Assembly (NCBI GenBank): GCA_013822345.1
Contig: PNKH01000073.1
Location: 1-41,431 of the forward strand
Source: Isosphaera sp.
GTDB taxonomy: Bacteria; Planctomycetota; Planctomycetia; Gemmatales; Gemmataceae
DNA: 41,431 nucleotides
Direction of reading: 5' to 3'
Part shown: positions 6,879 through 41,298 of the stretch, piece by piece
Position numbering within the stretch: the stretch's first letter is position 1
Layout of the letters: each line of letters opens with the position of its first letter
Program-made: the position numbers and the translations under genes
Notes under the pieces: model-generated
Databases searched by the model: none
What the model was told of the DNA's origin: nothing
Seen by the model: only the letters and a program-made list of their open reading frames with translations

Positions 6879-7847
6879 TCACGGCGTCCCGAACGGCAGG
6901 CCGTCGTTCCGGACGCCCAGCTGCGCCCGCAGGGCCGGGTCCACGTCCGCCGGGTACCCGCGGACCGACCCGTCCCCGAACGCGAACTGCGTCCACCCGC
7001 CCGTGTGCCGGCTGTTGAACGCCTCGTCCACGTAGTCCCGGCCGAACGCCGGGCCGCCGCCGGTCGGCCACACCACGTTGTCGATCCACACGAACCGGGC
7101 GGCCCCGGTCCCCGGGGTGGCGTAGGTGCCGGTCATCCCGCACCACAGCCCCGTCGACAGGGTGTTCCCGGTCGACACCGTCCGCGGCACCCCGGACCGG
7201 CCCTCCCCGACGAACACCGTGTTGCTCGTCCCGTCCGTCACGTCCCCGACCCGGGTCCGGCTGTTCTGGTACATCACCCCGCCGATGTCCTGCGACGGGG
7301 TGTAGAAGACGGTGGCCAGCGTCCCGCCGGTCGCCCGGTAGTTCGACACCGCGAACCCGCCCTGCTCGGCGCTCACCGGCGGGCCGATGTCGGCCGGGCA
7401 GCGGAACACCTTCAGCGGGGTCTGGCCGCCGTCCGCCGGGGTCGAGGTCGCCTGCAGGGTGCCCCACGGCGGCCCCGCCGTCGGGACCTGCCGGCCGAGC
7501 GCCTCCTGCTCGACGAACGGGAGGACGAAGGTGCCCCACCCCGGCCCCGAGTTGAGCCCAGCCGCCTGGTACGCCGGCGGGAACCGCCCGAACACCCCGT
7601 GGTAGTTGTGGAGACCGAGGCCGATCTGCTTCAGGTTGTTCGCGCACTGCGTGCGCGCCGCGGCCGCGCGGACCTTCTGGACGGCGGGCAGGAGCAGCCC
7701 GACCAGCACCGCGATGATCGCGACCACCACCAGCAGCTCGACCAGGGTGAACCCCCGTCCCGGAGCGCGGCCGTCCCGGCCGCTCCGGAAGCAGCGGCCG
7801 GGACGGCCGCGCTCCGGGACGGGCGTGAACCGGGTACGCCTGGTCAT
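6879..7847 (-). CDS. DUF1559 domain protein with prepilin-type N-terminus
   Basis: This 322-residue protein has a class III prepilin signal: an unusually long, Arg/Gly-rich leader of about 32 residues, cleavage expected after Gly32 before [13 protein letters not shown], then a single hydrophobic helix. The body matches the DUF1559/SBP_bac_10 family, with the early [16 protein letters not shown] motif and a C-terminal H-X9-tag-like region ending in an ADGSVR-type segment (here [10 protein letters not shown]). Planctomycetes carry many such pseudopilin-like secreted proteins of unknown function, often with type II secretion-like components. Residues 9-31 of the leader are encoded by a perfect inverted repeat (7754-7823). 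It is the last gene of a minus-strand run and begins 22 bp after the nitrilase-family gene ends. Confidence 0.93.
7754..7823. repeat. Perfect 31-bp inverted repeat inside the DUF1559 leader
   Basis: Arms 7754-7784 and 7793-7823 are exact reverse complements around an 8-base loop. The core of each arm (CGGCCGTCCCGGCCG or its complement) is shared with the repeats at 24868-24985 and 41155-41218, so the three form one family. This copy lies within the coding sequence and encodes Arg/Gly/Pro-rich leader residues upstream of the prepilin cleavage site. Confidence 0.9.
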
Positions 7848-22717: not shown

Positions 22718-22791
22718 GCGCCCGTAGCTCAACTGGATAGAGCATCCGCCTTCTAAGCGGAAGCGTGTGGGTTCGATTCCCACCGGGCGTA
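22718..22791 (+). tRNA. tRNA-Arg (anticodon TCT)
   Basis: A 74-base cloverleaf. The acceptor stem is 22718-22724 with 22784-22790 (one G-U pair at the end), and the D arm is closed by GCTC with GAGC. The anticodon stem is 22745-22749 with 22757-22761, and the loop places TCT at 22752-22754. A five-base variable loop and a standard T arm with TTCGATT follow. The discriminator base is A22791 and CCA is not encoded. TCT reads AGA/AGG arginine codons, which should be rare in so GC-rich a genome. The gene ends 15 bases before the next start codon. Confidence 0.96.
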
Positions 22792-23393: not shown

Positions 23394-23633
23394 ATGGACT
23401 ACCAGACGATCGAGGACTGGCGGCGGGCGAACCCGTTCCAGCCGTTCCGCCTCGTGATGACCGACGGGCGGACGTTCGACATCTTGCACCCGAACCTGGT
23501 CTGGCCCGGCCGCGTGACCGTCCTGATCGGCATCCAGGACCCGGCCGAGCCGGCCGGCGTGTTCGGGCAGTACATCAGCGCCGCGACGCTCCACGTCGTT
23601 CGCGTCGAACCGGTCCCCGTCGGCACGGTGTGA
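23394..23633 (+). CDS. Small conserved hypothetical protein (79 aa)
   Basis: A 79-residue soluble protein. ATG 23394 has a purine-rich GGGGGGA ribosome site. The sequence opens DYQTIEDWRRANPFQPFRLVMTDG, a pattern I associate with small planctomycete proteins of unknown function that share a beta-hairpin core (FDILHPNLVWPG, TVLIGIQDP, ISAATLHVVRVEPV). No catalytic motif is visible. Its stop overlaps the start of the DNA methyltransferase gene as TGATG, so the two are translationally coupled; whether they act together is unknown. Confidence 0.8.
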   Translation: MDYQTIEDWRRANPFQPFRLVMTDGRTFDILHPNLVWPGRVTVLIGIQDPAEPAGVFGQYISAATLHVVRVEPVPVGTV

Positions 23634-24865
23634 TGAGCGACGCACCCCGGAGGCGGCGGTCCCTGACCCACGTCGGCGGCGGGGTCCGCACCGCCGGCGA
23701 CGCCGCGGACGGCGACCGCCTCGCCCGCGCCCTCGCGGTCGCCCCGGCGACCGACGCCCCCGACGACCCGGCCCGCGCCCACGTCCACGGGTTCCACACC
23801 TACCCCGCCCGGATGCACCCGACCACCGCCGCCCGCCTGGTCCGGGCGTTCGCCCCGAGCGGCGGACGCGTCCTCGACCCGTTCTGCGGCTCCGGCACCG
23901 TCCTCGTGGAGGCGCAGCTCGCCGGCCTCGCCGCCCGCGGCACCGACCTGAACCCGCTCGCCGTCCTGCTGTCCCGGTGCAAGACGCGCCCACGGACCGC
24001 CGCCGAACTCGGTCGGCTCGTGGAGCGGGCGACGGAGTGCGCCGAGACGGCCGACGCGCGGCGGAAGGCGAAGGCCGGGGCGACGCGGCGGTTCCCGGAC
24101 GAGGACGTCCGGCTGTTCGAGCCGCACGTCCTGCTCGAACTCGACTCGCTCCGGGCGGCGGTCGCGGCGGTGCCGGACGCGACCGCCCGCGCCGACCTGT
24201 GGCTCGTCCTGTCGTCACTGCTGGTGAAACTGTCGCGACAGGCGGCCGACACGTCCGACCGGGCGGCCCCGCGCCGCACTGCCGCCGGGTTCGCCGCCCG
24301 GCTGTTCGCCCGCAAGGCGGAGGAACTCGCCGGCCGCCTGGCGGCCTTCGCGCGGCTGCTGCCGTCGCCCCCCCCGCCGGCCGCCGCCGACGAGGACGAC
24401 GCGACCGCCCCGGCCACCGTGCGGCCCGGGATGGCCGACGCGATCGTGACCTCGCCGCCCTACGCCGCGACCTACGACTACGCGGCGCACCACGCCCTGC
24501 GGATGCGGTGGCTCGGGCTGAACGCGTCGAAGTTGACCCGCGGCGAACTCGGGTCGCGGGCGGCGTACCGGCGGGTGAAGCCCGGGGCGGCGCGAGAGAC
24601 GTGGGGGCGGGAACTCGCCGGGTTCTTCCAGTCGGCGGCCCGGCTGCTGCCGCCCGGCGGGCCGCTCGTGCTGGTGATGGCCGACTCGGCGGTCGGCGGC
24701 GCGGCCGTGCGGGCGGACGAGGTGGTGGCGGAGGTGGGGCGGGCGTGCGGGTTCGTCCCGGCGGCGTGCGCGTCGCAGGACCGGCCGCACTTCCACGGCC
24801 CCGGCCGGGACGCGTTCCGCGACCGCCCCCGGGCCGAGCACGCGATCCTGCTGCGGCGGGCGTGA
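23633..24865 (+). CDS. DNA methyltransferase-like protein (N4-cytosine/N6-adenine type), orphan
   Basis: A 410-residue protein with the AdoMet-binding motif I DPFCGSGT (82-89) and catalytic motif IV TSPPY (273-277), the latter typical of amino-methyltransferases. HGFHTYPARMHP (53-64) before motif I is also seen in such enzymes, where it helps form the AdoMet pocket. The roughly 180 residues between the two motifs are rich in Ala and Arg and probably form the target-recognition region. No restriction endonuclease gene is adjacent, so it is an orphan methyltransferase or an RNA/DNA-modifying relative. The start at ATG 23633 overlaps the stop of the preceding 79-aa gene. The gene ends two bases before a large inverted repeat shared with the convergent ATPase gene. 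Confidence 0.88.
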   Translation: MSDAPRRRRSLTHVGGGVRTAGDAADGDRLARALAVAPATDAPDDPARAHVHGFHTYPARMHPTTAARLVRAFAPSGGRVLDPFCGSGTVLVEAQLAGLAARGTDLNPLAVLLSRCKTRPRTAAELGRLVERATECAETADARRKAKAGATRRFPDEDVRLFEPHVLLELDSLRAAVAAVPDATARADLWLVLSSLLVKLSRQAADTSDRAAPRRTAAGFAARLFARKAEELAGRLAAFARLLPSPPPPAAADEDDATAPATVRPGMADAIVTSPPYAATYDYAAHHALRMRWLGLNASKLTRGELGSRAAYRRVKPGAARETWGRELAGFFQSAARLLPPGGPLVLVMADSAVGGAAVRADEVVAEVGRACGFVPAACASQDRPHFHGPGRDAFRDRPRAEHAILLRRA

Positions 24866-24867
24866 CC

Positions 24868-24985
24868 ATCCTGGACCGCGGGCGTCCCGCCCGCCCCACG
24901 TACCCGGCGCGGTGACGTGAACGGTCCGCCCGGGAGCGGACGGGGCGGGGCCGGTGGAGCGGCCGGGACGGCCGCGGTCCAGGAT
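24868..24985. repeat. Inverted repeat filling the gap between convergent genes
   Basis: Arms of 27 bp at 24868-24894 and 24959-24985 pair with two mismatches. The right arm has the same core as the repeats at 7754-7823 and 41155-41218. The element begins two bases after the methyltransferase stop and ends directly at the ATPase stop codon. It could act as a two-way terminator, and it looks like a palindromic repeat element inserted between the genes. Confidence 0.8.
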
Positions 24986-27900
24986 TCACGGCTCCTTCCC
25001 GCCGAGGCGCGGGGCGACCACCGACGGCACCTTGAACAGGTCCGGGTCGACCAGGAACAGGTGCCGCCTGGCCGGGACGTCCGGGGCGTCGATCAGCACC
25101 TTGTCCCGGCCGCGGAGGGCGTCGACCGCCGCCTGCACCGTCAGCCGGTGCTCGATCAACTGCCGCCGCTCGGCCAACATCTTCTCCCGCCGGGCGGCCA
25201 GGCCGTCCGCCCCGCCGGCCGCCAGCTCCGCCTCCTCGGCCGGGGTCAGGGTGGTGCGGGCCGCGTGCCACGCCAGGAACGCGTCCCGGTCGGCACGGGC
25301 CGCCTCCCGCTGGGCGTGGGCGTCGGCGTCCGCCCGCTTCAAGACACGGTCCGCCTCCTCGTCCGCCCGCCGCCGCGTCCGGACCGCGTCCGCCTCGGCC
25401 GCGTTCACCAGCCGGTCCCGCTCGGCCGCCGCCCGCGCCACCCGGTGGTACGACTCGACCACCCCGGCCGGCGGGTGGACGTCGTGCAGGACGAACCCGT
25501 CGAGGGCGATGCCGCCGCCCGCGGCGGCCGAGCCGACCCGCTTCCGCAGCCGGGCCAGCGCCTCCCGCTCGACCTCCGCCCGGTGCGTCGTCAGCACCTC
25601 GGTGAACCGCCGCCCGGCGACCACCTCGCGCAGCGCCGACTCGGCGGCCGACCGGACCGCGGCGTCCGGGTCGCGGAACCCGAACAGGAACGCCCGCGGG
25701 TCGGAGACGTGATACCGGACGGTCGCCAGCACCTCGACCAGGTTCTCGTTCCCGGTGATCAGCACCGCCTCGTCGGTCACCCGGTGGATGCCGTCCCCGT
25801 GCCCGCTCGCCCAGGTGTTCCCGGGGCCGGTCCGCCCCGCCCCGCCGACCCGCCGGGCCTGCTCCGCGGTCAGCGTGCGGAACCCGACCTCGACCGTCCG
25901 CACCTCGTCCGGACGGACCCGGGTGACCGTCTCGACCGGCCACGGGTACCGGACGTGCAGCCCGGGCGGCAGGTCCGCGACCGGCCGGCCGAACCGCTTC
26001 ACCACCCCGACCTCGCCGGCGTCGACCACCGCCAGGCACGTCGCCAGCCACCCGAGCAGGGCGACGGCGGCCACCACGCCGGTGACCGCCTTCCACCGGT
26101 GCGCGAGCCCGTGCAGCACCTCGTCGACCGAGAGCCGGCCGAGCCAGTCGTCGAGCCGCCGGGCCGCCCCGCGGACCCGGGCGACCGACCCGGTCGACCC
26201 GGTCCGCTCGAACGCGAGCAGACGCATCGAGTTCAGCAGGACCAGCAGTGACCCGAGTTGGTGGTACACCACGCCGGCGAGCGGGGCCGACCGGTTCCAC
26301 TCGTCCGACGACCCGAGGAGCGGCCACAGCCACCCGGTGACGACCACCCCGACGAGGTTGACGCCGAACCCGAACACGACGATGTTCTGGCGGATGATCC
26401 GGACCGTCTCCCGCGAAAGCCGGACGAGCAGCGGGAGCGGGCGGAGCGGCTCGCCCATCAGGACGATGTCGCCCGCCTCGGCCGCCACGTCGGTCCCGGA
26501 GCCGACCGCGATCCCGACCGCCGCGCGGGCGAGGGCCGGCGCATCATTCACGCCATCCCCGACGAACGCAACGGCGAGCCGCGGGTGGCCGTCTTCCCCC
26601 TCGCCCCCGGAGGGGGAGAGGGCGGTGAGGCCCGTCCGGGCCGAGCCGGGTGAGGGGGCGGGCGTCCACGGATGTCCGGGTGCGTTCCCCCCCTCACCCG
26701 GCCGGCGAGCAAGCTCGCCGACCGCCCTCTCCCCCTCCGGGGGCGAGGGGGAAGACGCGGCGACCCACGCTGCCTTTTCGGCGGGGAGCAACCCGGCGTG
26801 AACCTCGGTCACCGGCAGCTGCCCGGCGACCGCCCGGGCGACGGCCGGGCGGTCGCCGGTGAGCAGCGCGACCGGGGCCAAGCCGAGCGCCCGCAGGTCC
26901 GCCAGCACCTCCGCCGCCTCCGGCCGCACCCGGTCCCGACACCCGACCGCCCCGAGCACCGTTCCCCCGGCCGCGACGAGGAGCGAGGTCTGCCCGGCCG
27001 CGTCGAGTCGGTCGAGGGCGGCGACCGCGTCCGACCCGACCGCGACGCCCTGCTCCTCCAGGAACCGGCGGGTGCCGACTACGACCGCGGCGCCCCCGAC
27101 GGTCGCCGTCACACCCCCGCCGGGGTGCGCCCGGAAGTCGGCCGCGTCCGGCAGTGACAGCCCCCTGTCACGCGCCGCGGCGAGCACCGCCCGGGCGAGC
27201 GGGTGTTCGCTCCCGCCCTCCGCCGCCGCGGCCGTCGCCAGCACCTCCTCCGCGGTCGCCCCGCCGACCGGGACCACGTCGCCGACTTCGAGCTTCCCTT
27301 CGGTCAGCGTACCGGTCTTGTCGAACGCGACGGCGGTGACCCCGGCCAGGCGTTCGAGCGCCGACCCGCCCTTGATGAGCACGCCGGTGCCGGCGAGCCG
27401 GCCGAGGGCGGCGATGACCGCCGCCGGGGTGGCGAGGATGAGGGCGCACGGGCAGGCGACGACGAGCACCGCCATCGCCGGGTACGCGGCGGCCCCGGCG
27501 GCGGCCCGGAGGGTCGGCTTCGCCCCCCCCGGCGGCGGGGCCGCGTTCAGTTGGAAGAAGACGTTGGCGGCGAACGTCAGGACGGCGAGGGCGAGGACGG
27601 TCGGGAGGAAGAACCGGGCGAGGCGGTCGGCGTACCGCTCCAGCGGGGCCTTGTCCTTGAGGGCCTGGGCGGTCAGGGCGATGACCCGCCCGGCGACCGT
27701 GTCCGCCGCCACCTTCCGGGCCTCGACGGTGAGCGCCCCGTCCTGCACCACGCACCCGGCCAGCACCTCGTCGCCCGGCCCCTTGTCGGCCGGCACGCTC
27801 TCGCCGGTCAGTGCGGCCGTGTCCACCGCCGACCGCCCGTCGACCACCACGCCGTCGACCGGCACCTTCCCGCCGGGCTTCACCACCACCCGGTCGCCGG

Positions 27901-28387
27901 CGAGGACATCGGTGGTGAACGTCCGCACCTCCTCCCCGTCGCGGAGGACCCAGCAGCGGGTGGGGAAGAGTTCGGCGAGCCGGCCGAGGGCGCCGCGGGT
28001 GCGGGCGAACGTGTACGCCTCCAGGCACTCGCCGAGAAGGCCGACGAACACCACCTCGGCGGCGACGAGTTCCTCGCGGAGGTAGATGGCGGCGAGGGCG
28101 GCGAGGGCGAGCGCCAGGTCGGCCCCGACGCGGCCCTCGAACAGGGCTTCGAGGGACCCGTACAGCACCCGCGCCCCGCCGACGACGGCGGCGAGGAGGG
28201 CGTACCGGAACCCGAACGGCTTCGGGTTCCAGGTGTAGGTACTAATGCCCCGCGTGGCGAGCCAGTCGGCGAGTTGGAGCCACAGGTCGGCGGCGAGGAG
28301 CAGCCCGACGACGGCGGTGAGGAGGTAGAGGCCGAGCGGGGACTCGGACCGGAACGGGTCGTCGGCGCGCGACACTTCGCGGTGCAT
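24986..28387 (-). CDS. Heavy-metal-type P-type ATPase fused to an HflK-like SPFH domain
   Basis: A 1133-residue fusion. Residues about 1-730 are a P1B-type ATPase: TGES (194-197), membrane CPC (312-314), phosphorylation motif DKTGT (356-360), the P1B-type EHP at 394-396, and GDGVNDAPA (610-618). The N-terminal metal-binding HMA domain usual for copper or zinc pumps is missing. A further helix at about 767-787 begins an HflK-like SPFH part, with VVKRFGRPV, PGLHVRYPWPVE, a long charged helical region with many Arg/Glu/Ala heptads, and a stomatin-like tail. HflK normally partners HflC to modulate FtsH protease. A metal pump tethered to a band-7 scaffold is the inferred outcome. In-frame foreign repeat sequence (residues about 545-598) lies between the HAD motifs. 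It is convergent with the methyltransferase gene. Confidence 0.93.
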   Translation of the reverse strand: MHREVSRADDPFRSESPLGLYLLTAVVGLLLAADLWLQLADWLATRGISTYTWNPKPFGFRYALLAAVVGGARVLYGSLEALFEGRVGADLALALAALAAIYLREELVAAEVVFVGLLGECLEAYTFARTRGALGRLAELFPTRCWVLRDGEEVRTFTTDVLAGDRVVVKPGGKVPVDGVVVDGRSAVDTAALTGESVPADKGPGDEVLAGCVVQDGALTVEARKVAADTVAGRVIALTAQALKDKAPLERYADRLARFFLPTVLALAVLTFAANVFFQLNAAPPPGGAKPTLRAAAGAAAYPAMAVLVVACPCALILATPAAVIAALGRLAGTGVLIKGGSALERLAGVTAVAFDKTGTLTEGKLEVGDVVPVGGATAEEVLATAAAAEGGSEHPLARAVLAAARDRGLSLPDAADFRAHPGGGVTATVGGAAVVVGTRRFLEEQGVAVGSDAVAALDRLDAAGQTSLLVAAGGTVLGAVGCRDRVRPEAAEVLADLRALGLAPVALLTGDRPAVARAVAGQLPVTEVHAGLLPAEKAAWVAASSPSPPEGERAVGELARRPGEGGNAPGHPWTPAPSPGSARTGLTALSPSGGEGEDGHPRLAVAFVGDGVNDAPALARAAVGIAVGSGTDVAAEAGDIVLMGEPLRPLPLLVRLSRETVRIIRQNIVVFGFGVNLVGVVVTGWLWPLLGSSDEWNRSAPLAGVVYHQLGSLLVLLNSMRLLAFERTGSTGSVARVRGAARRLDDWLGRLSVDEVLHGLAHRWKAVTGVVAAVALLGWLATCLAVVDAGEVGVVKRFGRPVADLPPGLHVRYPWPVETVTRVRPDEVRTVEVGFRTLTAEQARRVGGAGRTGPGNTWASGHGDGIHRVTDEAVLITGNENLVEVLATVRYHVSDPRAFLFGFRDPDAAVRSAAESALREVVAGRRFTEVLTTHRAEVEREALARLRKRVGSAAAGGGIALDGFVLHDVHPPAGVVESYHRVARAAAERDRLVNAAEADAVRTRRRADEEADRVLKRADADAHAQREAARADRDAFLAWHAARTTLTPAEEAELAAGGADGLAARREKMLAERRQLIEHRLTVQAAVDALRGRDKVLIDAPDVPARRHLFLVDPDLFKVPSVVAPRLGGKEP
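26593..26754. repeat. 162-bp palindromic element inserted in frame in the ATPase gene
   Basis: Perfect 34-bp outer arms at 26593-26626 and 26721-26754, with a nested 14-bp inverted repeat inside (a GCCGGGTGAGGGGG-type arm and its complement). The element is exactly 162 bp (54 codons), keeps the ATPase frame open, and encodes Ser/Pro/Gly/Glu-rich sequence between the strand LLPAEKAAWVAA and the conserved GDGVND loop. The module order resembles one half of the repeat at 35216-35398. Confidence 0.9.
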
Positions 28388-39888: not shown

Positions 39889-41298
39889 TCACTTCAGGAT
39901 CCCGCGGATCGGTCGCCCGCCGTGGGAGATGTGGGTAGGTCGGCCGGTGTGGTCGGGCACCGTCGCTTCCGGGTCCACCCCGACCAGGTGATACACGGTC
40001 GAGACCAGGTCACCGGCCGACACCGGGTGGTCGGTCGGGTACGCGGCGATCTTGTCGGTGGTGCCGTGGACGACGCCCGGCCTTGTCCCGCCGCCGGCGA
40101 ACAGGCAGAACCCGCACGCCGGCCAGTGGTCGCGGCCGGCCCGGGCGTTCACCTTCGGCGTCCGCCCCATGTCCCCGGTCACCACCACCAGCGTCTCGGC
40201 CAGCAGGCCGCGGTCGCCGAGGTCGTCGAGCAGGGCCGACAGCGCCCGGTCGAGGAACGGCAGGAGCAGCCCCTTCAGCATGTTGAAGTTGTTGTCGTGC
40301 GTGTCCCAGTGGCCGTTCGGCTTCGCCTCGGTGTGGATCGTGACGAACGTCACCCCCGCCTCGACCAGCCGGCGGGCGAGCAGCACGCTCTGGCCGAACA
40401 GGTCGGCGCCGTACCGGTCGCGGAGCTTCGCCGGCTCGCGGGCCAGGTCGAACGCCGACTTCGCCTTCGGGGACAGCAGCAGGTCGAACGCGGCGTCGCG
40501 CCGGGTGGCGTGGTGGCGGGTGTCGAAGTGGGCGGCGTGGGTGTCGAGCTGCTGCACCAGGGTGCGGCGGTCGTTCAGGGCGTCGAGGGTGAGGTCGCCG
40601 CCGACCTTCGGCAGCCGCGGCTCGCCGACCAGCGGGACGTTCGGGTTGTAGAAGTCCTTGCTGACGCTGGTGTCCGCGCCGTTGTGGGCGTCGGCGGTGC
40701 TGAACACCGGGTCCCACTTCGGGCCGAGGTACCCGCCGTACGGGCCGGCCCGCCGCAGCCCCTGGGTGTACCCGGGGTACGCCGGCAGCATGACGTAGCC
40801 GGGCAGGTCGGTGCCGCGGCCGACGCCGAGGTACTGGCAGACGCTCGGGACGCTCGGGTGGTTGGTCGGCTTCGCGTGGTAGTCGGTCTGGTCGTGCCCG
40901 CCGTCGAACCCGGTCATCACCCCGTACGGGTTGTGCGAGTTGTACTTGTGGGTGACCGACCGCACGACGGCGAGCCGGTCGAGGCGGGCGGCGAGCTTCG
41001 GCAGGTGCTCGCAGACGCGGACGCCGGGGAGCCGGGTCGGGACGGTGGCGAACTCGCCGCGGATCTCGGGCGGGGCGTCCGGCTTGGGGTCGAACGTGTC
41101 GATGTGGCTCGGCCCGCCGAACAGGTCGAGCAGGATGACGGCCTTGGCCGTCTTCCCCTGGACCGCGGCCGTCCCGGCCGCCCGCGAAGAAGCGGCCGGG
41201 ACGGCCGCGGTCCAGGGGAGGAGCATCCCGGCCCGGAGGAGGTCGCGGCGGGTGACGCCGTCGGCGGCGGCGGACGGGTGTCCGAGGACCCGGAGCAT
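39889..41298 (-). CDS. DUF1501 protein with a repeat-encoded Tat signal peptide
   Basis: A 469-residue DUF1501 protein. The twin-arginine motif TRRDLLRAG lies at residues 16-24. The stretch that follows, residues 27-48 (LPWTAAVPAASSRAAGTAA...), is encoded by a perfect inverted repeat and would form the hydrophobic and cleavage parts of the signal. The catalytic region is conserved: LLDLFGGPSHIDTFDPK, GVTFVTIHTEAKPNGHWD, TLVVVTGDMGRTPKVNA and GRDHWPACGFCLFAGGG. It is the first gene of the DUF1501 / WD40 / WD40 / DUF1501 block. Its promoter is probably in the last 130 bases of the window. If the repeat is a recent insertion, the ancestral signal peptide was shorter. Confidence 0.94.
   Translation of the reverse strand: MLRVLGHPSAAADGVTRRDLLRAGMLLPWTAAVPAASSRAAGTAAVQGKTAKAVILLDLFGGPSHIDTFDPKPDAPPEIRGEFATVPTRLPGVRVCEHLPKLAARLDRLAVVRSVTHKYNSHNPYGVMTGFDGGHDQTDYHAKPTNHPSVPSVCQYLGVGRGTDLPGYVMLPAYPGYTQGLRRAGPYGGYLGPKWDPVFSTADAHNGADTSVSKDFYNPNVPLVGEPRLPKVGGDLTLDALNDRRTLVQQLDTHAAHFDTRHHATRRDAAFDLLLSPKAKSAFDLAREPAKLRDRYGADLFGQSVLLARRLVEAGVTFVTIHTEAKPNGHWDTHDNNFNMLKGLLLPFLDRALSALLDDLGDRGLLAETLVVVTGDMGRTPKVNARAGRDHWPACGFCLFAGGGTRPGVVHGTTDKIAAYPTDHPVSAGDLVSTVYHLVGVDPEATVPDHTGRPTHISHGGRPIRGILK
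41155..41218. repeat. Perfect 26-bp inverted repeat inside a Tat signal peptide
   Basis: Arms 41155-41180 and 41193-41218 are exact complements around a 12-base loop. The arm core matches the repeats at 7754-7823 and 24868-24985. It is in frame within the DUF1501 gene and encodes residues 27-48 of its signal peptide. Confidence 0.9.

Follow-up and report, generated by a model that had tools for sequence, protein, structure and literature searches.

Judged by its sequence, the palindrome in the signal region of the DUF1501 gene described here is one copy of a dispersed repeat family with REPIN architecture, i.e. two inverted REP-like hairpins. In our interpretation, which we hold with considerable confidence, a mobile element of the REPIN type, likely linked to a RAYT, would have inserted in frame into the Tat-type signal of the DUF1501 protein and extended it, with the protein still being exported. 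The nine prepilin leaders of the same genome that carry the element, eight of them with a decayed duplicate beside it, are the more interesting part of the case. If the account is true, a transposase-linked repeat supplies parts of a Tat signal and of type IV prepilin leaders, repeatedly and in one genome; a known kind of repeat would seem to rewrite the address labels of exported proteins, and the family would be a natural comparison set for the freedom of sequence that export signals enjoy.

The palindrome and its host gene

The window, by which we mean the whole stretch of 41,431 nucleotides that was analysed, contains the following features of the host gene:

39889..41298, minus strand: DUF1501 gene, 469 aa, with an N-terminal twin-arginine signal (from the translation, PF07394 and the orthologs)
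41245..41253, minus strand: codons of T16-R17-R18, part of the twin-arginine motif TRRDLLR (read from the translation)
41158..41214, minus strand: inserted element, 57 bp or 19 codons, residues 29-47, WTAAVPAASSRAAGTAAVQ (delimited by the nearest ortholog, which is without it)
41151..41181: palindrome arm, 31 nt
41192..41222: complementary palindrome arm, 31 nt

The open reading frame at 39889-41298 contains the whole palindrome, and its product matches the PF07394 (DUF1501) profile over residues 51-468 with 303 bits against a cut-off of 27, in agreement with the host protein named in the preliminary description of this DNA. The twin arginines are residues 17-18, within TRRDLLR at residues 16-22, and ten residues separate the second of them from the first residue encoded by the element, which begins 84 bases downstream of the start codon. 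The element-encoded residues 29-47, one arginine among them, make up the later part of the uncharged core and what comes next. An inverted repeat does follow the twin-arginine motif, as had been described, and it is longer than the 26 bp then ascribed to it: the 31-nt arms are 97% complementary, with one mismatch and a 10-nt loop, and 28 nt are perfect. Folded as single-stranded DNA the palindrome reaches -47.2 kcal/mol, compared with -22.3 +/- 2.4 for 200 dinucleotide shuffles (z -10.3), none of which was as good. It has no Rfam match at the gathering threshold, and there is no T run 3' of it in the sequence. A tRNA gene at 22718-22791 is all that Rfam recognises in the window at that threshold.

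A dispersed family of paired hairpin arms

That the palindrome belongs to a repeat element, as proposed earlier, is borne out by its copy number. A 21-base arm, allowing up to three mismatches, occurs at 149 + 151 = 300 places in the 7.47-Mb genome (an assembly of 226 contigs), while the reversed control occurs at 1 + 3 = 4; for a 22-base arm the counts are 186 + 198 = 384 and 5 + 5 = 10, respectively. Among 18 other genomes of the genus, 16 have at least one match to the 22-base arm (range 1-156 places), with the poorest genomes, G004 (5 vs 3 in the control) and G017 (1 vs 0), at the level of chance. The elements themselves were surveyed in 81 stretches (the window and 80 stretches mostly around known copies) that amount to 1.52 Mb and hold 268 of the 384 arms. 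These stretches contain 118 inverted arm pairs, 38 short and 80 long, apart from seven pairs with a summed mismatch above 8 that were left out. Short elements measure 47-65 bp between the outer GGACC/GGTCC ends; of the long ones 77 measure 97-111 bp and three 143-164 bp, and their cores are variable.

Each arm of the family is a hairpin with a 7-bp stem (GCGGNCG/CGNCCGC), a 3-base loop and a GGTCC tail, and GGTCC/GGACC is the conserved outer end of both the arms of this genome and the related ones. At stem pair 5/13, 40 arms from 20 elements of five relatives (inward-facing pairs picked among the arm matches listed) have G-C in 24 cases, A-T in 9 and C-G in 6, with the pair broken in one out-of-register arm; such three-way covariation supports selection acting on the putative folded arm. 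Besides the copy in the DUF1501 gene, the window contains two others:

7759..7818: second copy, in frame in a prepilin leader just 5' of GFTLVELL
24868..24985: third copy, long form, between the convergent genes 23633-24865 (plus strand) and 24986-28387 (minus strand)

The arms of the third copy, at 24868-24985, have differing stem variants, of the GCGGGC and GCGGCC types.

A transposase bounded by the same ends

Five matches to Y1 transposases were found in the genome. One of them (contig G000:C49, L119:1195-1845) has family arms on both sides, inverted and with 0 and 1 mismatch, and its C-terminal residues are encoded within its own right-hand arm. The protein of 216 aa matches NF047646, the NCBIfam model of REP-associated tyrosine transposases, with 85.6 bits (cut-off 80). 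Inverted ends of the same type accompany its orthologs of 65-69% identity (27 nt in G002, 19 nt in G014, 11 nt in G003) and are absent from the locus of a truncated ortholog in G015; a relative of another family, 56% identical (G049), has inverted ends of 14 nt. These shared ends are the link by which the family is likely mobilised by this RAYT, and the short elements would move by means of the transposase encoded elsewhere in the same genome. The reading frame directly after the RAYT gene has, by eye, a twin-arginine start and a DUF1501-like sequence.

The remaining four loci were rejected as sources of the family's transposase, with a family arm nearby only at 4-6 mismatches. Inverted repeats of other sequence are found at L118, L120 and L122 (up to 22, 26 and 12 nt) and one of 11 nt at L121, and several transposase-repeat pairs may coexist in the genome.

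Orthologs of the DUF1501 protein and the origin of its signal

A search with the DUF1501 protein gave matches in 59 of 59 genomes, its own included. For comparison we used 22 orthologous loci (L009-L030; 59-83% tblastn identity), of which two are incomplete at the 5' end, leaving 20 complete. The orthologs conserve the N-terminal 24 residues, MLRVLGHPSAAADGVTRRDLLRAG, which supports a start codon upstream of the repeat and speaks against the alternative raised in the preliminary description, that translation might begin downstream of it. The motif [ST]RRxxL is present in all 21 loci with a complete N-terminus among L008-L030, the gene studied here included. The stretch from the RR motif to the first strand, on the other hand, is hypervariable in length (10-36 residues) and in sequence among the 20 complete orthologs, and neither the element nor an equivalent palindrome is found in it in any of the 20; the earlier suggestion to compare orthologous N-termini accordingly yielded no protein with the same residues and no DNA symmetry (0 of 20). 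The longest perfect inverted repeat in this segment is 12 nt in L015, 9 nt in L028 and at most 7 nt in the other 18, against 28 nt in the gene with the element. The 12-nt linker palindrome of L015 (G004:C63:367-386) was considered as a member of another repeat family and rejected, as it has one place in G004 at up to two mismatches in a search of eight genomes.

The nearest ortholog, L009, reads ATC CCC GGG GCC GCG AAG GCC where the gene in the window reads CTC CCC [57 bp] GGG AAG ACG GCC AAG GCC. The DUF1501 gene thus looks as if it took an in-frame insertion at a CCCGGG site, a site defined from this one nearest ortholog, which is about 83% identical and comes from a different species. Insertion into CCCGGG would account for the added palindromic bases that this copy has at its outer ends.

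Downstream of the RR motif the uncharged run is 16 residues long; without the element it would be 7. In the 20 complete orthologs its length is 10-22 (median 14), being 12 in L009 and 10 in L021. The peak hydropathy over 10 residues is 1.37 with the element and 1.20 without, both below all 20 orthologs (1.39-2.20), which speaks against a strong role of the element in the signal. Native to the signal are the start, the n-region, the RR motif and the first six residues of the uncharged core (AGMLLP). Because of these native parts, and because orthologs free of the element have uncharged cores of 10-22 residues, the element most likely extended or partly replaced an older signal of the Tat type and did not create one. 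The earlier claim that it encodes most of the Tat signal therefore holds for its in-frame position in the hydrophobic-to-cleavage part and fails for the native start, n-region, RR motif and AGMLLP, and the view of the element as an uncommon route to a signal peptide gives way to that of an older signal extended or partly replaced, given such a core in all 20 element-free orthologs.

We propose that the hypervariable stretch separating the twin-arginine motif from the first strand received an in-frame copy of the element, which is read in a frame rich in alanine and valine, so that its 19 residues would lengthen the native uncharged core from 7 to 16. Its residues would also furnish the stretch before the mature domain; plausibly, the element now supplies the c-region of the older signal and the latter half of its h-region, a presumptive cleavage site with them. 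Selection has presumably tolerated the change, and export of the protein most likely continues by the Tat pathway.

Location of the copies in the genome

Of the 118 elements, 99 lie outside called genes, 17 inside and 2 across a gene edge, in sequence of which 89% (of 1.52 Mb) is called coding. As many as 80 of the 99 follow a called stop codon at a distance of no more than 40 nt. At least one element counted as outside genes (L045) lies in a prepilin gene that the gene caller missed and a pattern search recovered. The family avoids genes, the remaining coding copies seemingly occupying tolerant places; their arms are open in all three frames. Four of the 17 elements inside genes (L058, L098, L102, L110) may owe this position to false upstream extensions made by the gene caller, and L076 lies at a 3' end, so the coding copies relied on are those in the DUF1501 gene, the prepilins, L038, L040, L042, L079 and L082.

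In the L038 gene (L038:2453-4528), which encodes a conserved protein that we take to be MuiA/DUF4139-like, the element lies in a variable segment of 23-70 residues between fixed anchors (40 in this genome; readable at 11 of 12 ortholog loci). Two orthologs, L274 and L275, have another palindromic insert in frame in the same segment, whose arms match perfectly over 48 and 29 nt, and the segment looks like a shared landing pad for palindromic inserts. In L040:10424-11563, presumably a BioF/KBL-like enzyme, the element lies near residue 41 and possibly replaced native sequence instead of lengthening it.

Alternative explanations of the DUF1501 palindrome

Alanine-rich coding DNA of high GC content is in general expected to favour self-complementarity, and the symmetry could in principle be a product of chance or codon bias in such a signal. 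The likelihood of this is practically nil: the fold is far better than that of the dinucleotide shuffles, the orthologous segments have nothing comparable, and similar sequence at hundreds of further places refutes it. It has also to be considered that the palindrome acts on the level of DNA or RNA, in transcription attenuation or mRNA stability, and that the encoded residues are incidental. Most copies are indeed intergenic and closely follow stop codons, much as has been described for REPs (PMC3733652); this copy, however, lies in a translated segment near the start, where ribosomes would open it, and with neither a T run nor an Rfam match we regard such a role as improbable. A distinctly more serious candidate, to which we give appreciable though minor weight, is that of a neutral passenger, which takes no part in export and occupies a tolerant spacer with a complete native signal before it and the mature domain behind. 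It agrees with the hypervariability of the spacer across the 20 orthologs, with the in-frame copies in unrelated genes such as L038, whose orthologs differ widely at that place and in two cases have a different palindromic insert, and with the short uncharged runs of L009 and L021. Against it, the run left after removal of the element would be shorter than in all 20 orthologs, so that the element appears to belong to the core, and extension of an older signal remains the reading we prefer.

The element in prepilin leaders

The second copy in the window belongs to the following gene:

6879..7847, minus strand: DUF1559 prepilin-type gene with the element in its leader (PF07596, 144.3 bits; PF07963, N-methylation motif, 28.8 bits)

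Pattern searches together with called genes revealed the element in the leaders of nine prepilin genes of this genome, the one in the window included. A pattern of fixed spacing matched ten places, which became eight after the removal of L130 and L131 (not prepilins) and nine after addition of the window copy that it had missed; a spacing-free pattern matched 13 places in 4 of 19 genomes, ten of them in this genome, and nine of those are the known carriers. L312 and three places in G002, G014 and G016 were rejected as carriers, with no arm pair in the listed 170 bases before the motif. The fixed-spacing and spacing-free patterns gave no prepilin-leader carriers in the 18 relatives; leaders with variant arms or a differently spaced element could escape such patterns. 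For comparison, the prepilin core occurs, at up to three mismatches, at 79 places in the genome. Prepilin-like starts were found in 33 called genes of the 1.52 Mb, 27 with leaders of 4-15 residues and six with the element and leaders of 31-50.

The distance from the end of the right arm to the last leader residue is one codon in the prepilin carriers and two in the window copy; at least part of the leader must therefore come from the element, no matter which start codon is taken. The last leader residue is Gly in the carriers except for Ala in L125. On the left of the element, eight of the nine copies have 15 bases that resemble the 15-base intact motif on the right (mostly GGN TTC ACC CTG RTC) in 9-12 positions, and L125 has 7. 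The mean identity between the flanks of the nine copies, 10.0, compares with 4.85 +/- 1.71 for a background of 235 flanks of all elements, carriers included, and was reached in none of 20000 draws, in a test that was not blind, the 15-base frame having been chosen after the alignments were viewed. The duplicate is direct, with a mean of 10.0 of 15 against 4.4 for the inverted comparison at the symmetric offset, which rules it out as an extension of the inverted repeat; the window copy scores 11 both ways and hence does not discriminate. No duplicate motif of the GFTL type occurs in the listed leaders of the 27 element-free prepilins.

The insertion of REPINs is expected to proceed without target duplication, as for IS200/IS605. 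Across the elements in general we found none: a two-way scan of offsets in 116 elements, with their partners permuted for comparison, gave a best Z of 4.2, at offsets that fit no junction, and exact duplicates at symmetric offsets gave no general duplication either. No flank duplicate was seen at the DUF1501 copy. The prepilin duplicates reflect either a duplication of about 15 bp on insertion, leaving a working motif, or an ancestral carrier that recombined between paralogs, and they offer a handle on how REPINs insert.

One could imagine a gene-sparing insertion, in which the element enters after the GFTL[IV] codons, duplicates about 15 bp and keeps an intact GFTLxE behind it, itself joining a new leader; some nine independent events would then have made export leaders a preferred niche of REPINs, while other copies, such as that in the Tat signal, came in without duplication. 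We offer this scheme tentatively and think it somewhat unlikely as a whole. A single ancestral insert-bearing gene, copied or recombined into paralogs without repeated insertion, is a possibility that we rate a little higher, if still as doubtful. It would leave the same kind of left duplicate in eight of nine carriers and nine junctions alike save for one right-hand codon, and the common N-terminus of prepilins could permit the recombination. The carriers, however, are distant paralogs, six of them only 29-48% identical to one another, which differ in their element cores and upstream leaders. On a tree of 36 prepilin-like proteins they are also dispersed, the nine requiring 7 changes against a shuffled mean of 8.1 (112 of 500 shuffles as low), on a poorly resolved topology with 14 of 33 inner branches open.

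Comparison with known systems

REPINs consist of two conserved REPs inverted around a spacer; they form hairpins, are multicopy, mostly extragenic and linked to RAYTs (Bertels and Rainey 2011, PMC3116915). The family shares with them the paired inverted palindromic arms, the hairpin, the high copy number, the mostly extragenic position and a RAYT gene with the same repeats. It differs in arm sequence and tag, in that some copies are read in frame, and in export leaders as a recurrent landing place. The arm ends have neither a GTAG nor a CGTC tag, the outer end being GGTCC/GGACC, and the family is therefore not placed in those REP super-families. TIRYTs and TIRtrons combine a tyrosine transposase with self-complementary inverted ends that are free of GTAG/CGTC tags and genomically repeated as pairs (PMC3733652). 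Here, too, a tyrosine transposase lies between untagged inverted ends which recur as a repeat family, but the sequence GGGGWSAS, common to some TIRs in that paper, is missing from our arm consensus. To judge from these likenesses, the transposase and the family form a REPIN/RAYT arrangement, which in the nomenclature of PMC3733652 would be a TIRtron with TIR repeats.

Rickettsia palindromic elements are repeats that sit in frame within protein genes and are tolerated there (PMC2229807, PMC3733652); CGTC elements, RPE-4 and RPE-6 included, seem to be without a dedicated transposase (PMC3733652). The likeness, by description, lies in the in-frame palindromes and the difference in the phylum. Intragenic REPs, N-termini included, have been described with the caution that a wrongly annotated start may underlie many of those at N-termini (PMC3733652), and in-frame MITE inserts are reported in Coxiella (PMC5896051); the main text of the former does not mention a signal peptide, leader or pilin, and that of the latter uses neither "signal peptide" nor "signal sequence". 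The literature searched, largely that outside subscription papers, yielded no title that places REPINs in Tat signals or prepilin leaders. The closest precedent is the RU-2/YPAL element of Yersinia in YPO1552, where a MITE forms a signal peptide predicted by SignalP in a putative protein (Delihas 2007, PMC2759123; PMC2229807). With this precedent and the nine prepilin leaders of the same family, the DUF1501 gene is not the lone and uncommon case that it had first been taken for. Intragenic REPs and a MITE-built predicted signal peptide are thus already in print; in Yersinia the host is a putative protein, whereas here it is the twin-arginine signal of a conserved protein, and nine prepilin leaders besides, that contain the element.
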